DNA of 48,344 nt from Flavobacteriaceae bacterium (GCA_020854235.1 JADZFW010000041.1:1-48344), one strand, 5' to 3'. Counted from the first letter of the stretch, positions 26,745-48,344 are shown. Notes: generated from the letters alone by a model not told the origin. Program-made: numbers and translations.

Positions 26745-27117
26745 AGGGTTTTTAATTATCTATGGGCAGATATATAAATTAGTTGAATTTAAAAAAATCA
26801 AGTTTTCCAAATAACTTGAAATTGTTTATTTATACCTTGATTCAAAAAATACAATGCTTTAAACATGACATGTCTATGGATTTGAATTCATTTCTAAATT
26901 AAAATGACAACATCTTCTTTTGAAGACCTGAGTAGATATATATAATTACAAAAGTTTGTTTATGAAGCTATGAATTATACTTTTTAACATCTGAAAATTA
27001 CATTTGAAAACTTGCTTTATTTTTCATACTTATAAAAGTTTGTTTATAGAGGAATGAATCATGCATCCTAATCACTCCAAATTGATTTTGAAGCCTTGCA
27101 TTGTTTTTTGAAATACC
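26745..27117. other. Non-coding stretch with decayed repeat units
   Basis: 373 bp without a credible gene. From about 26998 onward, words such as TTTGTTTATAGAGGAATGAATC and CAAATTGATTTTGAAGCC align loosely with the 42-bp unit of the neighbouring array, suggesting old, diverged copies. The leftmost part (26745-26990) is AT-rich with nothing recognisable. Confidence 0.45.
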
Positions 27118-27621
27118 TGAAACTTGTTTCCGAAGACTTGAATTGTCTATCAGAATAACTGAAATTAGTTTCCGTAGGCATGAATCGAGCATCAGAATAA
27201 CTGAAATTAGTTTCCGTAGGCATGAATTGAGTATCAGAATTACTGAAATTAGTTTCCGTAGGCATGAATTGAGCATCAGAATAACTGAAATTAATTTCCG
27301 TAGGGGTGAATTGAACATCAGAATTACTGAAATTAATTTCCGTAGGGGTGAATCGAGCATCAGAATAACTGAAATTAGTTTCCGTAGGGGTGAATTGAAC
27401 ATCAGAATTACTGAAATTAGTTTCCGTAGGCATGAATTGAGTATCAGAATAACTGAAATTAGTTTCCGTAGGGGTGAATTGAGCATCAGAATTACTGAAA
27501 TTAGTTTCCGTAGGGGTGAATTGAACATCAGAAATACTGAAATTAGTTTCCGTAGGGGTGCATTGAGCATCAGAATTACTGAAATGAGTTTCCGTAGGGT
27601 TCAATTGAACATTGGAATAAG
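27118..27621. repeat. 42-bp tandem repeat array (12 units, 10 near-identical)
   Basis: Twelve units begin every 42 bp at 27118, 27160, 27202 and so on to 27580. The ten central ones (27160-27579) are near-identical; the first and last are diverged. The conserved cores are TTTCCGTAGG and ATCAGAAT. Differences are confined to five places: unit position 9 (G/A), 20-21 (CA/GG), 27 (T/C), 30-31 (GC/AC/GT) and 39-40. Position 40 alternates A,T,A,T through the first eight central units, pointing to an 84-bp higher-order unit. Because 42 is divisible by three, three of six frames stay open for 178-190 codons, but in none are the differences mainly synonymous, so I treat it as non-coding. It lies 160 bp downstream of the stop of the helical unknown gene at 27781-28491. 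Confidence 0.9.
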
Positions 27622-35419: not shown

Positions 35420-35770
35420 GCTAAAGCCAAAGAATTTTTTCTGAACCCTACTTCATGTTCGCGGAAGCCATAGAATTTTTTCTGAACCCTTTTTCACGTT
35501 CGCGGAAGCTGTAGAATTTTTTCTGAACCCTCTTTTACGTTCGCGCAAGCCATAGAATTTTTTCTGTACCCTTTTTCGCGTTCGCGGAAGCTTCAGAATT
35601 TTTTCTGAACCCTCCCGCACGTTCGCGCAAGCCGTAGAATTTTTTCTGAACCTTCCCGCACGTTCGCGCAAGCCTCAGAATTTTTTCTAAACCCTCCCGC
35701 ACGTTCGCGCAAGCTGTAGAATTTTTTCTGAACCTTCCCGCACGTTCGCGCAAGCCGTAGAATTTTTTCA
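35420..35770. repeat. 41-bp tandem repeat array (8.5 units)
   Basis: Units start exactly every 41 bp at 35420, 35461, 35502, 35543, 35584, 35625, 35666, 35707 and a truncated one at 35748. Each contains the invariant core AGAATTTTTTCTGAACC (with rare single changes), ends in GTTC, and begins GCG(G/C)AAGC. Variation is concentrated in a three-base slot after AAGC (CAT, TGT, TTC, CGT, CTC) and in an eight-base pyrimidine-rich slot (for example CTTTTTCA, CTCCCGCA). Units on the right are more alike than those on the left. A 41-bp period shifts frame every unit, so the open frames across it are accidental. Confidence 0.92.
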
Positions 35771-35828
35771 AAATGCTCTTGTCAATTGATTATTTGAAAA
35801 GATGTTTAGCTTAAATGCCATAAAGTTC

Positions 35829-39328: not shown

Positions 39329-39769
39329 TTAATACAAATCGGGACGCCGAATCATACCACCCAAATGGGCTGTATAAAGTAAGATCAGGGTATTTATTAG
39401 AAGTAAAACAAATAAGATATAGGGTAATTTTTGAGAAGGTTTTTCACCTTGTAAATATCCGGAAAGAGCCATGATACCTATAAGTCCGCTAAAAACTTGT
39501 AGGATAAAAGTTATACGTCCCCAAAGCGCGTGATTTTCAACCAAATCTTGCGGATAGTTTTGAATTACAGATTTGACATGATCCGCAGTAGCAGGACCGG
39601 TAAAATATGAAATAGACGCAACTATTGCCAATAAAATAGATGCCGCATACATCCATTTCCATTTTCTTTCAATTTGATTTTTAAGATTGGGAAACATCCA
39701 AACAGCTAGAACAGGTGTGAGAATTACCGGAATATGAACAGTGATGACATGTAGTAAATTGGAAGACAT
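39329..39769 (-). CDS. Four-helix membrane protein, DUF2231-like
   Basis: The 146-residue product has four predicted helices (about residues 12-27, 38-57, 82-103, 113-131). Conserved-looking polar residues sit at helix ends: HVITVHIPVILTPVL, YFTGPATADHV, VENHALWGRITF, and HLGGMIRRPDLY at the C-terminus. The spacing of His residues would allow haem or metal binding, but this is inference. It resembles small quinone/haem-type DUF2231 proteins. The DUF6090 gene ends up 2 bp upstream on the same strand, so they are probably cotranscribed despite different base composition. Confidence 0.75.
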   Translation of the reverse strand: MSSNLLHVITVHIPVILTPVLAVWMFPNLKNQIERKWKWMYAASILLAIVASISYFTGPATADHVKSVIQNYPQDLVENHALWGRITFILQVFSGLIGIMALSGYLQGEKPSQKLPYILFVLLLINTLILLYTAHLGGMIRRPDLY

Positions 39770-40911: not shown

Positions 40912-41778
40912 TTAGTGTTTTCCTGTTTCAATCGCTTCACTCGGCTTTATGCCTTGATCTACTTTGCTGTAATCCAAAGTTGATCCACCCATGCTGTGTG
41001 GAATGAGATATACACTAGTCATTACAATTGTGGCAACTAAAACTACAATTCTGCTTACTAGTTCTTTCTTTTTGGGTTTAAGTCCAATAATAGCTATTGC
41101 TAAAACCCATACAAACCACATGATTAAGGTTTTATTATCCGTAAAATCACCACCGTATGGGAAACCAGTCCAATATTCACCAAAAGCATTTTTTTGCACC
41201 AATGGGCCGAGCATCATGCCGCCTATTGTCATGCCGGTCAAAGAAATAATAACCCATTTTCTCATTGTTACAGTATCAAACAAAGCACTCAATCCGGCTC
41301 TCAAACCAAAAAGGACAGCAAAAAACATAAAGAAAATATGTGGAATCAAAATACCGCCCGGAACAGGATCTTTATATCTCAATACAATGCTTTTTTCGCC
41401 TTCTTCAGGAATTCTGAAGGTTTTACCATCAACAGTACCAGTGATGTAATACTCCATTTTACCGGCGGCAGGTTGTATCGGTAATTGGGCTTCAAACTTC
41501 ATATCTTTTGAATATTCAAAGGCTATGGGAGTAATGGAATCCATGGTTTTATAGCGTTTGAAATGCAAAGTAGCCTGATAGTCTGCTGCATCTATAGTTG
41601 GTAAAGTAATGCGTGCTCCTTCGGTGGTTTCTTGCGAACGCAACAATTTGTATTTGAATTCTTTATTTGCCTGTGTAAGTTTTCCTTTAAAAGGATATGT
41701 TGGTCCGGTACTGCGTTGATAAATAACGGCGGCGATGGTCAAAATAACGGCCAAAGTCCAAAGAAATAGTTGCTTCAT
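40912..41778 (-). CDS. Membrane protein of unknown function with extracytoplasmic beta domain
   Basis: The 288-residue product has an N-terminal signal-anchor (MKQLFLWTLAVILTIAAVIY). An extracytoplasmic domain of about 120 residues follows (YPFKGKLTQANKEFKYKLLR, TTEGARITLPTIDAADYQAT). Four membrane helices come next (about residues 146-165, 175-192, 215-231, 240-258) and a short polar tail with MGGSTLDYSKVDQG. I do not recognise a named family; close relatives appear to be common in Bacteroidota genomes. It has its own promoter and terminator, so it is likely monocistronic. Confidence 0.75.
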   Translation of the reverse strand: MKQLFLWTLAVILTIAAVIYQRSTGPTYPFKGKLTQANKEFKYKLLRSQETTEGARITLPTIDAADYQATLHFKRYKTMDSITPIAFEYSKDMKFEAQLPIQPAAGKMEYYITGTVDGKTFRIPEEGEKSIVLRYKDPVPGGILIPHIFFMFFAVLFGLRAGLSALFDTVTMRKWVIISLTGMTIGGMMLGPLVQKNAFGEYWTGFPYGGDFTDNKTLIMWFVWVLAIAIIGLKPKKKELVSRIVVLVATIVMTSVYLIPHSMGGSTLDYSKVDQGIKPSEAIETGKH

Positions 41779-41939: not shown

Positions 41940-42860
41940 TCAATGCAGTTGGATATCGTGGAGCATATAAAGTGAGTGATAAACCGTTGGAAATATTTCG
42001 GTCAGATACTCTTGAACCCCTTTACTACTTCCCGGCAAACAATACACCAAGGTTTTATCTTTTACGCCGGCAATAGATCGACTGATTAAGGCATTTGGTT
42101 TTTCCATTCCGTATTTCACTCTGATTAACTCCATGATTCCGGTTATTTCTTTGTCTAAATGCGGTTTAACTACCTCGGGTGTAATATCTCTTTTGCCAAT
42201 TCCGGTTCCTCCGGTAGTAAATAGCAAATCCGTTTTGTTTTCAAAGGCACGGATTAAATGTTGTTCCAAATCTGTTTTTTCATCGGGGATGATGAATTTT
42301 TCAATATTGAATAGCCTATTGGTTTTGGTGAAAAATTCTGTTGACATTTGTTCGATCAAAGCCCCACTTTTATCTTCGTATATGCCGGCTGAAGCTCTGT
42401 CACTCAAAGTTAAAATCTTTATCCTTATGACTTTCGGTTTAAATTTCAGTACCATTCCCGATTGTAAAACAGCTTCTTTTTGCGCTCTGACAAATAGGCC
42501 ACCTATAGGAATATCTTTTGGCCCAGATTGATGAAACCTGATTAATGAGTCGGACTTTACTGTATGGGCAGTTATGGTAACTTTTAATCTCGCCTCTTCA
42601 CTAATGAGACAATCCATAGGTTTGAGTTGGGTTAAATCCATACCTTCTACAGTGATATTTTCGCCCCAAAACCCATATTCCTCGCCCAAATCAGTATAAG
42701 CTTCTTTACTCAACACGCTGATTTCACGATTCCAATAATCGGTATCTCCATCGCCATCAACACCTTTTCGGCTTACAAGTAGTTTGGAAACCTGTTTTTT
42801 GGGTTGATTTCGAATAGCAGATAAATTGACGGAAATAATTTTTATTTGTTGAGCATTCAT
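41940..42860 (-). CDS. MOSC-MoaB/MogA fusion protein (molybdopterin handling)
   Basis: The 306-residue product joins two domains. Residues about 1-145 form a MOSC domain: VSKLLVSRKGVDGDGDTDYW, EISVLSKEAYTDLGEEYGFW, GENITVEGMDL. Residues about 146-306 form a MogA/MoaB molybdopterin adenylyltransferase-type domain: IKILTLSDRASAGIYEDKSG, LLFTTGGTGIGKRDITPEVV, and SRSIAGVKDKTLVYCLPGSS. MoaB/MogA adenylates molybdopterin before metal insertion by MoeA; MOSC domains bind cofactor or sulfur carriers. The usual MOSC HGG segment is replaced (YWNREISV), and no conserved Cys is in the usual place. It starts 10 bp after moeA. Confidence 0.88.
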   Translation of the reverse strand: MNAQQIKIISVNLSAIRNQPKKQVSKLLVSRKGVDGDGDTDYWNREISVLSKEAYTDLGEEYGFWGENITVEGMDLTQLKPMDCLISEEARLKVTITAHTVKSDSLIRFHQSGPKDIPIGGLFVRAQKEAVLQSGMVLKFKPKVIRIKILTLSDRASAGIYEDKSGALIEQMSTEFFTKTNRLFNIEKFIIPDEKTDLEQHLIRAFENKTDLLFTTGGTGIGKRDITPEVVKPHLDKEITGIMELIRVKYGMEKPNALISRSIAGVKDKTLVYCLPGSSKGVQEYLTEIFPTVYHSLYMLHDIQLH

Positions 42861-42870
42861 AATAGTTTCA

Positions 42871-44046
42871 TTAAAATGAGATAAATCTTACCCGTTCATT
42901 TTCTTCCAATCGATTCTTTCCCATGGGAAATTCCATCAAACCGTCGGCTGCGATGAGTGCTTGTATGTTTCCCGAACCATTGTAGGCAACTTTATTAACT
43001 TTTCCGGAAGCGTTAATTTGAACCGGAATAAATTCTTTTTTATCTCCATTTTTCCTTTCCAACACATGGTCTAATGATAGAAAAATGGGTGGTTTTAATG
43101 CAATACAACCCATGAGTTTGTATAGAAACGGTATCGCAAATTCCTGCATTTGGACAAAAGTACTAACCGGATTTCCAGGCAAACCAATAACCCATTTTTT
43201 ATCTTTTTTGGCAAATAACAATCGTTTGCCGGGTTTCATGTGCAGTCCGTGAAAAAGAATTTCAAAACCATTTTCTTTTAAAATTTGAGGCACAAAATCA
43301 AAGTCGCCTACCGAAACGGCACCACTCATGATGAGTACCTCGTTGTTTTTTATCGAATGCAGCAATTGATCAGTGGTCAATTGATATTGGTCAGATACAA
43401 TTCCATAATAAGTAGCGTGAAATCTTTCCTGCTTGAGTTGATTCAGAATCGAATAAGCATTGGAATTTCTAATTTGCGTATCTCGAAGTGTTTCATGTGG
43501 TTCGACCAACTCTGACCCTGTAACCAAAACCCCGATTCTAGGTAATTTGTATACCATTATCCGTATTTGACCTAAGGTAGCCAATACCGCCAAATGTTGG
43601 GCTTCGAGTTTGGTCCCTTTTACTAGCATCACTTCACCTTCTTCGGCATCTTCACCTTTGTAGCAAATGTTGGTCGAACTGAACACATCATTAAAAATAA
43701 TATGATTTTCATCCCAAATTTGCACTTTTTCTTTGATGATAACCGTATCGGCTCCATCGGGAATCATGGCGCCGGTCATGATTTTGGCACATTGATTTTT
43801 TCCGATGCTATAAATGGGTTTTGTTCCTGCCGGTATCGTTTCAATCACTTCCATTGGTTCACTCAAATCTTCTTTTCGGCAAGCATATCCATCCATTGCA
43901 GATTTGTCAAAAGGAGGAAAGAACTCTTTTGTAATGATATTTTCGGCTAAAACTCTGTATAAAGCCGAATCAAAGGGAATCATTTCGGTTCCCAATGCTT
44001 CCAACGATTGAAAGGCTATAGCTTGGGCTTCTTCAAAAGTAATCAT
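42871..44046 (-). CDS. moeA: Molybdopterin molybdenumtransferase
   Basis: MoeA inserts molybdate into adenylated molybdopterin in the cytoplasm. The 391-residue product shows the four-domain layout: PPFDKSAMDGYACR near the start, AKIMTGAMIPDGADTVIIKE, the MoCF-binding core VLVTGSELVEP, MSGAVSVGDFDFVPQIL and GLPGNPVSTFVQMQEF, and domain IV (FIPVQINASGKVNKVAYNGS). A start at 44058 is possible, but the ATG at 44046 overlaps the upstream stop as ATGA, which indicates translational coupling and is preferred. Whether the metal is Mo or W cannot be told from sequence alone. Confidence 0.94.
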   Translation of the reverse strand: MITFEEAQAIAFQSLEALGTEMIPFDSALYRVLAENIITKEFFPPFDKSAMDGYACRKEDLSEPMEVIETIPAGTKPIYSIGKNQCAKIMTGAMIPDGADTVIIKEKVQIWDENHIIFNDVFSSTNICYKGEDAEEGEVMLVKGTKLEAQHLAVLATLGQIRIMVYKLPRIGVLVTGSELVEPHETLRDTQIRNSNAYSILNQLKQERFHATYYGIVSDQYQLTTDQLLHSIKNNEVLIMSGAVSVGDFDFVPQILKENGFEILFHGLHMKPGKRLLFAKKDKKWVIGLPGNPVSTFVQMQEFAIPFLYKLMGCIALKPPIFLSLDHVLERKNGDKKEFIPVQINASGKVNKVAYNGSGNIQALIAADGLMEFPMGKNRLEENERVRFISF

Positions 44047-45758
44047 TTGCTTTGCCAATTATTGATTTGTTGAAATAAGGTTTTTTCTGCATCAGGTGAT
44101 TCGATGGAAATCACATTTGAGGTATGTATTTGAAAACGATTCAATATTTCGGGAACAAAATCATTTCTAACAATCCAAACTTGGAGTACATTAGATTGTT
44201 TGCTTAAGTGCTGAATGGTTTGAAACCAACCCTTTTCTTGGAGTTCCCATTTCCCAATTTCGTCTAGAATAACTAAAGTAGGTTTGTCGTAAGTAATAGT
44301 CAAGCTTTTTTGAAATCTAGAAAAAGTATCAGCATTGACTATAAATTTGCCAATATCACCTTTTATATCCAATGGTGCTAAAGAAAGAAAAGGATATTGA
44401 TTACCCGTATTGACCTCGACCAAATCATATCCTATTGTTTCATTTTGATCCAATATTCGAGGCGCATAAAAACCTGCCAGATTTAGGTTTTTTACTTCAA
44501 ATGAGGTTAAGAAATGTTTTATAAAGTTGGTTTTCCCTTGAGCATAGTCGCCGGATATTACGAGAACATTGGATTGAGGTCTTATTTCATGCAAACGTTT
44601 TTCAGCTAGAGTTATGAGGTTTCGGATGACATCTCCGGGTCTTTTAAAAAAGGCTTTGACTTCGGGAAGATGGTTGATAATCACCGGAAGAGATTCAAAA
44701 GCCAGTTCAAGTGCTACGGGTAATTGTTTGAAGGAAGTTTTTGCAAAGTAATTCCTAATTGTCGGATTGTATAATTCAGTACCTAAAACGGCAAAACCTA
44801 CAATAACAATGGCCGCTCTGAAATTCATTTGCAAACCGATGATCAAACCTTTTAGCCATTTATCTTCATCACCTTGAATACTTGTGATGACAAAAGCTGT
44901 GAGCATGGTTATCACCACAAACCCAATCCAAAAAGAAGGTTTGGATAATTGTCGCAAACCTCGTTTGTATCGTTGGGTCCAAATAAAAATAACTGTCAAA
45001 GTAGCCGGTATCCATATGTAAATAGGTGACCAATTGATGAGGAACAACATCCCTATCAAGATGATCAAATCAATCCATAACCAACTTAAAGAATAAGGAA
45101 AATCTTGATTTTGTTTGGGTAAGAAATCAAATTCCAAACGGTTTAAGGACAGATTATTATTTTGTATCTTGTGTTCCAAACTCTTCCCAATACGCATTCC
45201 AAGGAAAACGGCAACGATACCGAAAAGGATATAAATTAGCAACAAAACTACAATAGGCATCCAGACCAAATCAAAATCAGTTTTGATTTGTTTGTTGGCA
45301 AAACCCATCAATTGTTTGTAAATTTCTACAATGTTAAAACCGTAAAAAATGATGTAATTGGCTATTTTTTGAAACAAAATCCACGACATGGCTAAGGCTG
45401 AACCCAACATAAATCCGATGGCATTTCGGCCTAATGTTCTCACCGAAATTTCAAGCAATACCGATTCCATGAAAATGGCAATCATAGGTCCAAATATGAC
45501 GGCGCTTGGGGACATGGTTTTCATCAAGGCACAAATCAATCCCGAGCGCCAAAAAAGTCCTTTGTCTTTCCATTTATAACTAGCGGCAATCATCAAAACA
45601 AAACCAATGGCAGTGAGAATGTTGCCATTAAACGGAATACGTAAATTATGTAAAAAGCTACCTAAAATAATTTCAGAAGCAGCCCATGTTGCTCCCAATA
45701 TGGCTGCTTTGAGCCATACTTCACTGATTTGGTTTGCTTTATTCATCTGCAAATTCAT
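44043..45758 (-). CDS. ECF-transporter-like membrane module fused to a THEP1-like P-loop NTPase
   Basis: The 571-residue product appears tripartite. Residues about 10-205 have five to six membrane helices resembling an ECF S-component: WLKAAILGATWAASEIILGS, SPSAVIFGPMIAIFMESVLL. Residues about 220-385 resemble an EcfT energising subunit: helices, then LQMNFRAAIVIVGFAVLGTE, FESLPVIINHLPEVKAFFKR. Residues about 395-571 are a THEP1/NTPase_1-type domain with Walker A GDYAQGKT (403-410), NLAGFYAPRI, GKFIVNADTFSRF and Walker B-like LVILDEIGKWEL (D499/E500). There is no ABC signature. I infer an inner-membrane importer or metal-loading protein. Its stop overlaps moeA (ATGA). The NTPase assignment is firm; the ECF parts are by pattern only. 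Confidence 0.7.
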   Translation of the reverse strand: MNLQMNKANQISEVWLKAAILGATWAASEIILGSFLHNLRIPFNGNILTAIGFVLMIAASYKWKDKGLFWRSGLICALMKTMSPSAVIFGPMIAIFMESVLLEISVRTLGRNAIGFMLGSALAMSWILFQKIANYIIFYGFNIVEIYKQLMGFANKQIKTDFDLVWMPIVVLLLIYILFGIVAVFLGMRIGKSLEHKIQNNNLSLNRLEFDFLPKQNQDFPYSLSWLWIDLIILIGMLFLINWSPIYIWIPATLTVIFIWTQRYKRGLRQLSKPSFWIGFVVITMLTAFVITSIQGDEDKWLKGLIIGLQMNFRAAIVIVGFAVLGTELYNPTIRNYFAKTSFKQLPVALELAFESLPVIINHLPEVKAFFKRPGDVIRNLITLAEKRLHEIRPQSNVLVISGDYAQGKTNFIKHFLTSFEVKNLNLAGFYAPRILDQNETIGYDLVEVNTGNQYPFLSLAPLDIKGDIGKFIVNADTFSRFQKSLTITYDKPTLVILDEIGKWELQEKGWFQTIQHLSKQSNVLQVWIVRNDFVPEILNRFQIHTSNVISIESPDAEKTLFQQINNWQSK

Positions 45759-45806: not shown

Positions 45807-46625
45807 TTAATCCATTGGATGGGGATTGTAAATGGTGATTTTTTCTGCACAATATTCAAACAAGTGATAACCGGCAGCGCCTTGACTTACCATTGGAAAG
45901 AGAATTTCAGGCTTGGTAATCATCGTGCCTCCTATCATGGAAATATGATGTTCAAAAAACAATTCAGGAGGAATACTCGCCGATGGTCCTATTAAAACCG
46001 ATTTACTGCTAGGTTTGATGCTTTGCAACAAATCGTCAAAGGTATTGTTGACCAAAGTCAAGCCGGTCATAATGACTAAATCGGCTTGTGGAATGACCTC
46101 TTTATATCGATCGGCTGGGACAAAGAACTTTTGATGTTCGGGTAGAAAAGCATCTTCGTTGAGTTCCAATACTTGCAATTGACTAGACGTAGTTGCTATC
46201 TTGTGGATATACGAATTAAAAGCACCAACCATTACAATTTTGGGGAATTGTTGGAAATCCAGCGTATCTATCGGATCCGTTTGATTGGAAAAGGCATACG
46301 CATTTTGATGCAACAATTGGTGAAAATAGGCATTAAGGGTAGCTATGCGCAACATTTGAACGATGGCTGTATTTTTGGGAAAAGCAAATAATTCTCCTAC
46401 TGTTTTCCCTATAATATGCATGGGTGTAAATTCGCCGAAATCGCGTTGTTTTTTAGTGACTTGATGCACTTCGTTGCTGTGAATAACACTAGCTGTTCCA
46501 TAAAAACCATTCGACATTTTTACAGCAACTAAAAATACCCCAATCCGAACATCTTCGATGAAGAGTTGTCCGAAAGCATCGTTTGATTTTATTTGAGCCA
46601 ATTGAAAAACACGATCAATAAACAT
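45807..46625 (-). CDS. DUF4213/DUF364 putative heavy-metal chelation protein
   Basis: The 272-residue product has an N-terminal enolase-N-like DUF4213 part (about residues 15-95: EDVRIGVFLVAVKMSNGFYG, IIGKTVGELFAF) and a C-terminal Rossmann-like DUF364 part: KIVMVGAFNSYIHKIA, LNEDAFLPEHQKFFVPADRY, ADLVIMTGLTLVNNTFDDLL, LIGPSASIPPELFFEHHISM, IGGTMITKPEIL. The family is thought to bind metal ions or metallophore-like ligands and occurs beside transport and molybdenum genes; the activity is not proven. It has no signal peptide and is cytoplasmic. It starts 1 bp after the receptor stop and is followed, after 48 bp, by the ECF/NTPase gene. Confidence 0.85.
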   Translation of the reverse strand: MFIDRVFQLAQIKSNDAFGQLFIEDVRIGVFLVAVKMSNGFYGTASVIHSNEVHQVTKKQRDFGEFTPMHIIGKTVGELFAFPKNTAIVQMLRIATLNAYFHQLLHQNAYAFSNQTDPIDTLDFQQFPKIVMVGAFNSYIHKIATTSSQLQVLELNEDAFLPEHQKFFVPADRYKEVIPQADLVIMTGLTLVNNTFDDLLQSIKPSSKSVLIGPSASIPPELFFEHHISMIGGTMITKPEILFPMVSQGAAGYHLFEYCAEKITIYNPHPMD

Positions 46626-46626
46626 G

Positions 46627-48344
46627 TTATTTTTGTATAAACTGATAATATAAATTTACGTAATAATTTCTGCCGGCTTCCGGATAACCTTCTGAAAGCG
46701 CATAATTTCGGTCAAATATATTATTTATTCCTGTTTCCAAACGGATTCCATTTTTGAAATCGTATGCCAATTGAGAATGAAACACGACAAATTCAGGTGC
46801 TTTTATACCATAACTCGTGCTATATCTCTCTGAATTGTAATTGGCATTGACGTTGAAATACAAATTTTTTAAAGGTTTGACTTCCATCATGGCAATGAGG
46901 TGATGTTCGGGAACATCGGTGAATAAAACTTCGGGTTGCGAGGTGTTTTCGCGTTGGATCAAAGCATAGTTCAACAAGAGATTCAAATAATAAAGCGGAC
47001 GATAAGTCAAAGAAAAATCGGCTCCGTAAAATTGGGCTGTTCCTGTGTTTTGCATTTGGGAAATACCCGGTTCGATATTGTTGACCAATTGGATGGTATT
47101 AAAGATTTTGGAATAGAAAACTTCAGGTTTAATACTTAATTTCTCTAATGTAAACTCAGTTCCCAAATCAATATTGAAAGCTTCTTCAGATTTTAAATCC
47201 GGATTGGGTAAAGCAGTTCCCATTTTATAAGAATAACGGTCTTTCATGGTTGCAAAGCGGGTTTTGTAGGAAACCGAAGAGTTGAATTTCCACTTTTCAT
47301 TCCATTGGTATAAAGTTGCCAATTGGACATTGAAAGCTTGATTGTCGTTTTTGGGAAACTCGGCATAACTACCATCAGCATTAGTAATTTTAGCATTTTC
47401 AGCCAAAATGCTTTTTCTAAAATGATAACTTATACCGGGAATGAATTGCCATTTTACACCTTTACGCCAAACATTCTCTATCCCCAATGAGTAGGTGTCA
47501 TCTTTGATGTGTTCGGGTTTTTGACCTTCATTATGGGATTGGTGATTATCTCTTTTGTAATGTAAAGCAGTTTTGAATGTGTGGCTTTGAAAATCGGTTG
47601 CTGATTCCAAACTGGCACCATACGCAACATCGTTATAAAAACTGGTAAATGATTTGTTGGTCGTCTGAGTATTGTAGTCAGCATTGTCAAAAGATTTCAA
47701 TTGGTTGCGATACGTGTCATAAAAGACTCTAGATTTCAACAAAGTTTTGGAACCCATTTGCGTTTTGGATATGAAATAAACACTTTCCTTATTCCAATAG
47801 GGCCATTGCCAGTAGCGAACTTTGTTTAAGGGATCGGCGCCTAAATATATAGGATTGCCTTTTTCACCCATTTGTTTGATGAAGGAAAGGCTGTATTCAT
47901 CCGTATCATTAGGTGTAAAACCTATTTTAGCAGTAAATTTTCTATCTTTTCTATATGAATTGTCCCTTTGAAAATCTTCTTCTTTTGGGCTGGTTTCAAA
48001 ATCTTGAGATAAAGGCACAAATTGGCGGTCGTACTGTGAAAAAATGGATTGCAAATACCATTTTTTTTGACGTGTTCCAACATTCACATAATTATTAAAA
48101 CCTTCACCGCTCAACAAACCGGCTTTGGTTTTTAATTCAAATATTCCCAAGGGTTTTGAACTGATTAAATTGATAGTGCCACCCAAGGCATTGGGACCGT
48201 AGAGAATTGAGGAATAGCCTTTGGAAACTTCGATTTTAGCCAAATCGGCTGTGGTAAACCGAGACAAATCGGCATACCCGTCATAAGGCACATATACAGG
48301 AATTCCATCCAAATAAATAGGAATACTTCTGATGTCAAAACCTC
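46627..48344 (-). CDS. TonB-dependent outer-membrane receptor (5' end beyond window)
   Basis: About 572 C-terminal residues are visible. The frame continues past the first apparent start and off the right edge; the leading residues GFDIRSIPIYLDGIPVYVP are the middle of a TonB plug domain, followed by KIEVSKGYSSILYGPNALGG. A 22-strand barrel follows, with typical words (LKSEEAFNIDLGTEFTLEKL, GADFSLTYRPLYYLNLLLNY) and the terminal strand YYVNLYYQFIQK. It would import a large or scarce ligand with TonB energy. Its 1-bp spacing to the DUF364 gene and operon with moeA point to a metal-related ligand such as molybdate or tungstate chelate; this is inference. Confidence 0.93.
   Translation of the reverse strand, partial: GFDIRSIPIYLDGIPVYVPYDGYADLSRFTTADLAKIEVSKGYSSILYGPNALGGTINLISSKPLGIFELKTKAGLLSGEGFNNYVNVGTRQKKWYLQSIFSQYDRQFVPLSQDFETSPKEEDFQRDNSYRKDRKFTAKIGFTPNDTDEYSLSFIKQMGEKGNPIYLGADPLNKVRYWQWPYWNKESVYFISKTQMGSKTLLKSRVFYDTYRNQLKSFDNADYNTQTTNKSFTSFYNDVAYGASLESATDFQSHTFKTALHYKRDNHQSHNEGQKPEHIKDDTYSLGIENVWRKGVKWQFIPGISYHFRKSILAENAKITNADGSYAEFPKNDNQAFNVQLATLYQWNEKWKFNSSVSYKTRFATMKDRYSYKMGTALPNPDLKSEEAFNIDLGTEFTLEKLSIKPEVFYSKIFNTIQLVNNIEPGISQMQNTGTAQFYGADFSLTYRPLYYLNLLLNYALIQRENTSQPEVLFTDVPEHHLIAMMEVKPLKNLYFNVNANYNSERYSTSYGIKAPEFVVFHSQLAYDFKNGIRLETGINNIFDRNYALSEGYPEAGRNYYVNLYYQFIQK

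Follow-up and report, generated by a model that had tools for sequence, protein, structure and literature searches.

Known members of the THEP1 or NTPase_1 family are small, soluble, stand-alone proteins, and the scavenging of vitamin B12 via BtuB and the B12 riboswitch relies on a TonB receptor and an inner-membrane importer that are placed under a riboswitch for the imported cofactor. For the molybdenum cofactor (Moco), the prevailing view is that cells needing it synthesize it themselves (PMC9793310). C. elegans, however, takes up with its diet mature Moco that was made by others, and the crossing of membranes by Moco is stated as an open question in the same work (PMC9793310). We searched the literature for transporters of Moco, and for ECF transporters in connection with molybdopterin, and found no named Moco transporter. 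The protein family described here, termed S-T-N after its three modules, is a concrete, riboswitch-linked candidate for such a transporter, and it is found not in an animal but in bacteria that use Mo enzymes without having the pathway.

S-T-N resembles the ECF transporters (5EDL for the S-component, 4HUQ, and CbiQ/EcfT) in its S-component-like fold, in a T module that is homologous to EcfT/CbiQ, and in that S, T and the NTPase can be separate genes of one operon. Unlike ECF transporters, it has neither EcfA/EcfA' ABC ATPases nor an ABC signature nor the A-R-G coupling motif, it contains one THEP1 NTPase per chain with the parts usually fused, and it is found in another gene context. With THEP1/NTPase_1 (PF03266; human 2I3B) the N module shares Walker A, the DE-x-G-x-x-E motif, the fold and the Pfam match, whereas its partners are membrane modules, in the same chain or encoded alongside, and it does not stand alone. 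Like ModABC, which according to the original report on the Moco RNA (PMC2408646) also lies behind a Moco riboswitch in some bacteria, S-T-N appears to serve Mo enzymes; unlike ModABC, it lacks a periplasmic binding protein and an ABC ATPase and is present in genomes without detectable molybdopterin synthesis. The scavenging of B12 is comparable in its logic, but the cofactor and the inner-membrane machine differ.

The window, i.e. the whole stretch of 48,344 nucleotides that was analysed, is all of contig C41 of a Flavobacteriaceae assembly of 2.49 Mb in 201 contigs, which is 76% complete. It contains a minus-strand run of a TonB receptor, DUF4213-DUF364, S-T-N, moeA and a MOSC-like/Mog fusion, in that order, with the following features:

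46627..48342, minus strand: TonB-dependent outer-membrane receptor (Pfam TonB_dep_Rec_b-barrel and Plug), the first visible gene of the run, truncated where the contig ends (48344)
45807..46625, minus strand: DUF4213-DUF364 protein (Pfam E 1.1e-37)
44043..45758, minus strand: 571-aa open frame, the whole single-chain S-T-N protein
45159..45737, minus strand: S module, S-component-like membrane domain, residues 8-200 (AlphaFold2, Foldseek, conservation)
44607..45095, minus strand: T module, transmembrane coupling domain resembling EcfT/CbiQ but lacking the canonical A-R-G motif, residues 222-384 (hhalign, CbiQ search, motif count)
44064..44573, minus strand: N module, THEP1-type NTPase (NTPase_1), residues 396-565 (Pfam PF03266 E 3.3e-16; Foldseek 2I3B E 1e-5)
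44529..44552, minus strand: Walker A GDYAQGKT, residues 403-410 (G403, G408 and K409 invariant in 42 homologues)
44241..44264, minus strand: Walker B / DEIGxxEL motif, residues 499-506 (D499, E500, G502 and E505 invariant in 42 homologues)
42871..44046, minus strand: moeA, molybdopterin molybdotransferase (Pfam MoeA_N, MoCF_biosynth, MoeA_C)
41940..42860, minus strand: MOSC-like domain fused to a Mog/MoaB-type molybdopterin adenylyltransferase (Pfam MoCF_biosynth E 4.5e-23, weak MOSC E 0.03; NCBIfam)

An earlier note on this DNA, made from the sequence alone, had described one 571-residue frame with two hydrophobic blocks, an ATGA overlap with moeA, and moeA and DUF364 as neighbors. The frame was recovered at exactly these coordinates on the minus strand, and the plus strand of 44043-45758 carries stops throughout. 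The hydrophobic blocks correspond in the AlphaFold2 model to seven helices within residues 13-196 and to long helices from 224 to 329, followed by shorter ones up to 392. The ATG of moeA lies at 44046 and the S-T-N stop at 44043-44045, and both neighbor identities were confirmed by Pfam. The frame is not a chance product, because about 40 other records contain full-length homologues that share its three modules; the closest relative found is from Polaribacter sp. (L056), with 62% identity over the best segment. Homologues were collected by protein searches and alignment searches and then scored with module profiles. A single-sequence search of genome contigs with the window protein gave no match, whereas an alignment search of the same contigs succeeded. 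PDB sequence searches with the whole protein, S or T found no membrane relatives, Pfam matched no named membrane family in the window protein, and a search of a defence-system library was likewise without a match.

The modules occur in Bacteroidota and relatives, and in most loci they form a single chain. Five loci encode S-T with a separate N (L056, L086, L091, L095, L100). In L046, L047 and L052, each module has its own gene and a TonB receptor is encoded between those for T and N, and S and T genes in the same type of operon occur in L039, L044, L045 and L050, while L051 has S and N genes and a T profile below the threshold. As nature itself splits S, T and N, the three modules are defined independently of any structural model. 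Further forms are N-S fusions (L036, L038, L041, L043) and a longer S of about 320-390 aa that stands by itself or next to N (L040, L048-L050, L053, L054). A four-part MobA-S-T-N fusion (L077, 7278-9524) and an N-MobA fusion (L053, 7319-8380) link the NTPase and the transporter to the synthesis of MGD.

The assignment of the P-loop domain to NTPase_1/THEP1, also made in the earlier note, is confirmed by Pfam, with 60 bits against a gathering cut-off of 23.9, and by human THEP1 as the top PDB fold match. Conservation of the active site was counted over the 42 homologues that possess the N domain, and Walker A at 403-410 and DEIGKWEL at 499-506 retain their key residues in all of them, as does the combination of Walker A and DE-x-G-x-x-E that characterizes THEP1. 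An ABC signature (LSGG/SGGQ) was not found in any of 48 proteins, and no ABC ATPase gene was found beside the split S-T-N genes. The machine is thus an ECF-like variant that does not belong to the ECF transporters proper, as NTPase_1 stands in place of their pair of ABC-type ATPases. The architecture suggests that N is the motor and drives transport by NTP turnover.

For the T module, the split T genes were compared by hhalign with 30 CbiQ sequences from Bacteroidota, which gave a probability of 94.3 (E 1e-7, 191 columns), compared to at most 4.6% for decoy families. The set of all T sequences reached 60.7 over 113 columns, and an uncleaned CbiQ alignment matched T weakly, while the cleaned set resulted in the 94%. 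In a blind CbiQ profile search of genome G197 the T gene was the top match (E 0.0145), and T proteins match CbiQ more often than any other family (4 of 10, weak E); a tblastn search with a CbiQ protein in plasmids gave no match. T is therefore an EcfT/CbiQ-type coupling subunit by profile comparison, but it lacks the x-R-x (A-R-G) motif of the EcfT coupling helix: x-R-x is present in the C-terminal half of 29 of 30 CbiQ proteins and 9 of 65 T proteins, and its ARG form in 17 of 30 and 0 of 65, respectively. The loss of this motif and the lack of an ABC signature fit a changed motor.

The S module had to be folded alone, because Foldseek with the full-length model returned only the NTPase confidently, plus junk MFS/ABC matches. 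AlphaFold2 predicts S with a pLDDT of 90 and a pTM of 0.82, and its top Foldseek match among 350,542 PDB chains is the ECF S-component 5EDL (prob 0.99, TM 0.53/0.55, E 0.41), with 4HUQ_S at TM 0.49/0.57. Among the matches listed, only S-components come near TM 0.5, and the others are at about 0.31 or below. By this comparison S has a fold like that of the 6-TM S-components, but as the Foldseek E is weak this likeness is a resemblance of folds and not a proof of ancestry. Invariant in S are W15, K17, W25, E29, G33, P42, G45, W63, P84, G90, P91 and G140, and H37 is nearly so. The earlier proposal that an S-like and an EcfT-like part are joined to a THEP1 NTPase that replaces the ABC ATPases is thereby supported. 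The Pfam families that the split S proteins hit most frequently are ABC_cobalt, with 6 of 18 (best 4e-4), and Trep_Strep, with 4 of 18 (best 2e-4), and in both cases the similarity is weak; we take these to be S-type families of ECF transporters for cobalt or thiamine-precursor-type ligands. Together with 5EDL, these matches could suggest that S-T-N imports another vitamin, such as a thiamine precursor, cobalamin or another pterin, and that the connection to Mo is secondary. We give this almost no chance, since the informative gene contexts are mostly Mo enzymes and MobA, and since a scan of about 1.09 Mb of loci yielded Moco riboswitches only and no TPP or cobalamin riboswitch. An importer of thiamine or B12 was rejected on these grounds.

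In each of the eight split-gene loci (L039, L044-L047, L050-L052) the Moco RNA motif RF01055 sits immediately upstream of S, and in three more (L066, L068, L108) it precedes a MobA-S-T-N run, so that a Moco-responsive regulon is indicated in 11 homologous loci, with E from 1.5e-9 to 1.9e-22; no further match was found elsewhere in the scanned loci. Their alignment has the core CTCCGA...CC.CCC...GGAAAGGAG, and 15 of 23 predicted pairs show at least one compensatory change. RF01055 was matched neither in the window, whose contig ends before the start of the operon is reached, nor in most single-chain loci, and a custom model applied to the window, the other loci and about 1 Mb of the window's genome gave no convincing further riboswitch; its hits in L095 (E 0.076) and at 43051-43156 of the window (E 1) were treated as chance. 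Among the groups with representatives that the original report names in its summary, no Bacteroidota are listed (PMC2408646). The same report interprets Moco RNAs lacking P3 as sensors of the tungsten cofactor (PMC2408646). The eight split-locus RNAs have no P3-like hairpin insertion, while those of L066, L068 and L108 do, and by this rule the split-locus RNAs might sense the tungsten cofactor. A Moco-sensing RNA in an organism that is unable to make Moco indicates uptake.

The gene context was surveyed in 76 loci, many of which are on short contigs. MobA is present in 28, nearly always directly beside S and usually as the gene before it, a Mo-oxidoreductase in 25, a TonB receptor in 13, DUF364 in 8, NapD in 5, xanthine dehydrogenase in 3, and FdhD and XdhC in one each, whereas MoaA was found in none. 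At least one gene for a Mo enzyme or its cofactor occurs in 44 of the 76, and Pfam confirmed the MobA and Mo-enzyme type of example neighbors, including cofactor-binding domains. The setting beside moeA and DUF364 is a minority, and MobA, Mo-oxidoreductases and Moco riboswitches are more common. N also shows weak similarity to DUF2478 (34 of 48 members) and MobB (24 of 48), which together with the fusions to MobA would suit a membrane-anchored machine that carries or inserts Moco for MobA and periplasmic Mo enzymes and is not a transporter at all. This appears highly improbable to us, because S and T match transporter parts, a TonB receptor belongs to the operon, and carriers without synthesis need an entry route for the cofactor.

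Within the same 395 genomes of the phylum, 39 carriers were compared with 356 others: MoaC was detected in 12 of 39 against 216 of 356 (p=5e-4, Fisher) and ModA in 3 of 39 against 144 of 356 (p=1.7e-5, Fisher), p-values that overstate independence as the genomes share ancestry. MoaC was not found in 27 of the 39 carriers, MoeA was present in 16 of 42 carriers searched and not found in 26, MoaE was present in 4 of 36 and not found in 32, and MoaA was present in 4 of 34. Five of the eight riboswitch-bearing split genomes (G268, G358, G366, G499, G530; 98-99% complete) lack MoaA, MoaC, MoaE, MoeA and ModA altogether, and in four of these five a Mo-oxidoreductase is located beside the system. The single-contig 3.7-Mb genome G268 contains a NapA-type enzyme, NapD, the riboswitch, S, T and a TonB receptor; G358, G366 and G499 are of the same type, and G530 has the riboswitch and the system but no Mo enzyme in the stretch read. 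Many carriers, though not all, hence combine the use of Moco with missing synthesis genes and with Mo enzymes at the loci. In two further genomes, G291 and G378, MoaA, MoaC and MoeA are present and MoaE was not detected.

The depletion of ModA could also mean that S-T-N replaces ModABC as an importer of molybdate or tungstate, or of Mo or W bound to a metallophore, and a TonB receptor and DUF364 would be at home in metal uptake, just as Moco riboswitches can precede molybdate transporters in some bacteria (PMC2408646). We nevertheless consider this very unlikely, as S resembles an ECF S-component and as many carriers have no detectable molybdopterin synthesis and could not use the imported metal in that way; an ordinary molybdate importer was rejected for these reasons.

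The window's organism uses Moco, because the roughly 1.06 Mb of its genome that were read for Mo enzymes encode two of them, the catalytic subunit of a DMSO-reductase-type enzyme (L240, C61) and, within a purine-catabolism cluster that also has a MobA-like transferase, a xanthine dehydrogenase (L201, C21). MoaA, MoaC, MoaE and ModA were not found in its assembly, which proves little by itself as the assembly is 76% complete. The organism keeps MoeA and Mog, so that it could import molybdopterin or re-metallate Moco. S-T-N might accordingly import molybdopterin that carries no metal, or a pterin from an earlier step such as cPMP, into which MoeA and Mog insert Mo inside the cell, a view to which the moeA and MOSC-Mog genes of the window operon, the retention of MoeA without MoaC in G197, G495 and G154, and the proposed pterin-like ligands of DUF364 lend some weight. 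We think that it is unlikely, as MoeA is missing in 26 of the 42 carriers searched, and as with ModA nearly absent Mo would have to come with the cofactor. An importer of cPMP was rejected, since MoaE is missing in 32 of 36 carriers.

Many carriers need Moco, lack the synthesis genes and in some cases place the system under a Moco riboswitch, and we therefore think it quite probable that S-T-N works in the inner membrane like an ECF transporter, takes up the already assembled molybdenum cofactor (Mo- or W-pyranopterin) and has a THEP1-type NTPase for its motor. While the modules and their separability, the conserved residues of the active site, the lack of an ABC signature, the gene context, the riboswitch of 11 loci and the synthesis genes missing from many carriers are established by sequence or fold, we infer the direction of transport, the ligand and the role of N. 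Points against this reading are the presence of MoaC in 12 of 39 carriers, the weak fold match of S (E 0.41, TM 0.53), the moeA and mog genes of the window, which are also compatible with import of metal-free molybdopterin, and the lack of a riboswitch match in the window and most single-chain loci. The earlier note had left the choice between an importer of a metal or pterin and an NTPase feeding metal insertion; the survey favors a more specific reading that the note did not name, uptake of the finished cofactor, and import of molybdate and pure metal insertion are much less likely.

In the proposed import of Moco, the TonB-dependent receptor would take the cofactor across the outer membrane, S would bind it in the inner membrane, T would connect S with N, and N would turn over NTP and so drive release of the cofactor into the cytoplasm. 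There, MobA, often encoded by the adjoining gene and sometimes fused, would add GMP for bis-MGD enzymes of the NapA and DMSO-reductase types, or XdhC/MocA-type proteins would make the cofactor ready for xanthine dehydrogenase. MoeA and Mog of the window's organism may put the metal back or repair the cofactor, and DUF364 may process the pterin ligand, as a solved DUF4213-DUF364 relative has been proposed to act on a flavin- or pterin-like ligand (PMC2954201). Free Moco is unstable (PMC9793310), so that outside the cell it would have to be protected or bound to protein. We also lean, somewhat less firmly, towards the wider view of a new class of primary transporters, in which a non-ABC THEP1-type NTPase drives ECF-derived S and T modules that, jointly with a TonB receptor, import the Mo/W-pyranopterin cofactor intact, and whose carriers are often natural auxotrophs that scavenge Moco as a shared, vitamin-like compound in microbial communities. 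If true, Moco would be traded in the way that vitamin B12 is, an unrelated NTPase could take the place of the ABC motor in ECF transporters, and the assignment of Moco as substrate would be new.

Some variants stand apart from these loci. The reversed N-S fusions have a T-like tail (L036:7518-8924, L038:6959-8371, L041:7096-8514, L043:7025-8530) and adjoin HPr/PtsI or Pst phosphate genes and not Mo genes, and their ligand may be a different one. A longer S variant of about 340-360 aa is located in or near purine-catabolism clusters with YgeW/SsnA/YgfK-like genes (L040:7457-8482, L049:7462-8466, L050:17881-18945), a setting that fits xanthine dehydrogenase. Elsewhere in the window, the frames at 26998-27570 and 35535-35771 consist of near-identical short repeats and are probably not genes. 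After the operon follow two membrane genes without a Pfam match (40912-41778 and 39329-39769), counterparts of which lie beside S-T/N in Polaribacter (L056, 10940-12380).
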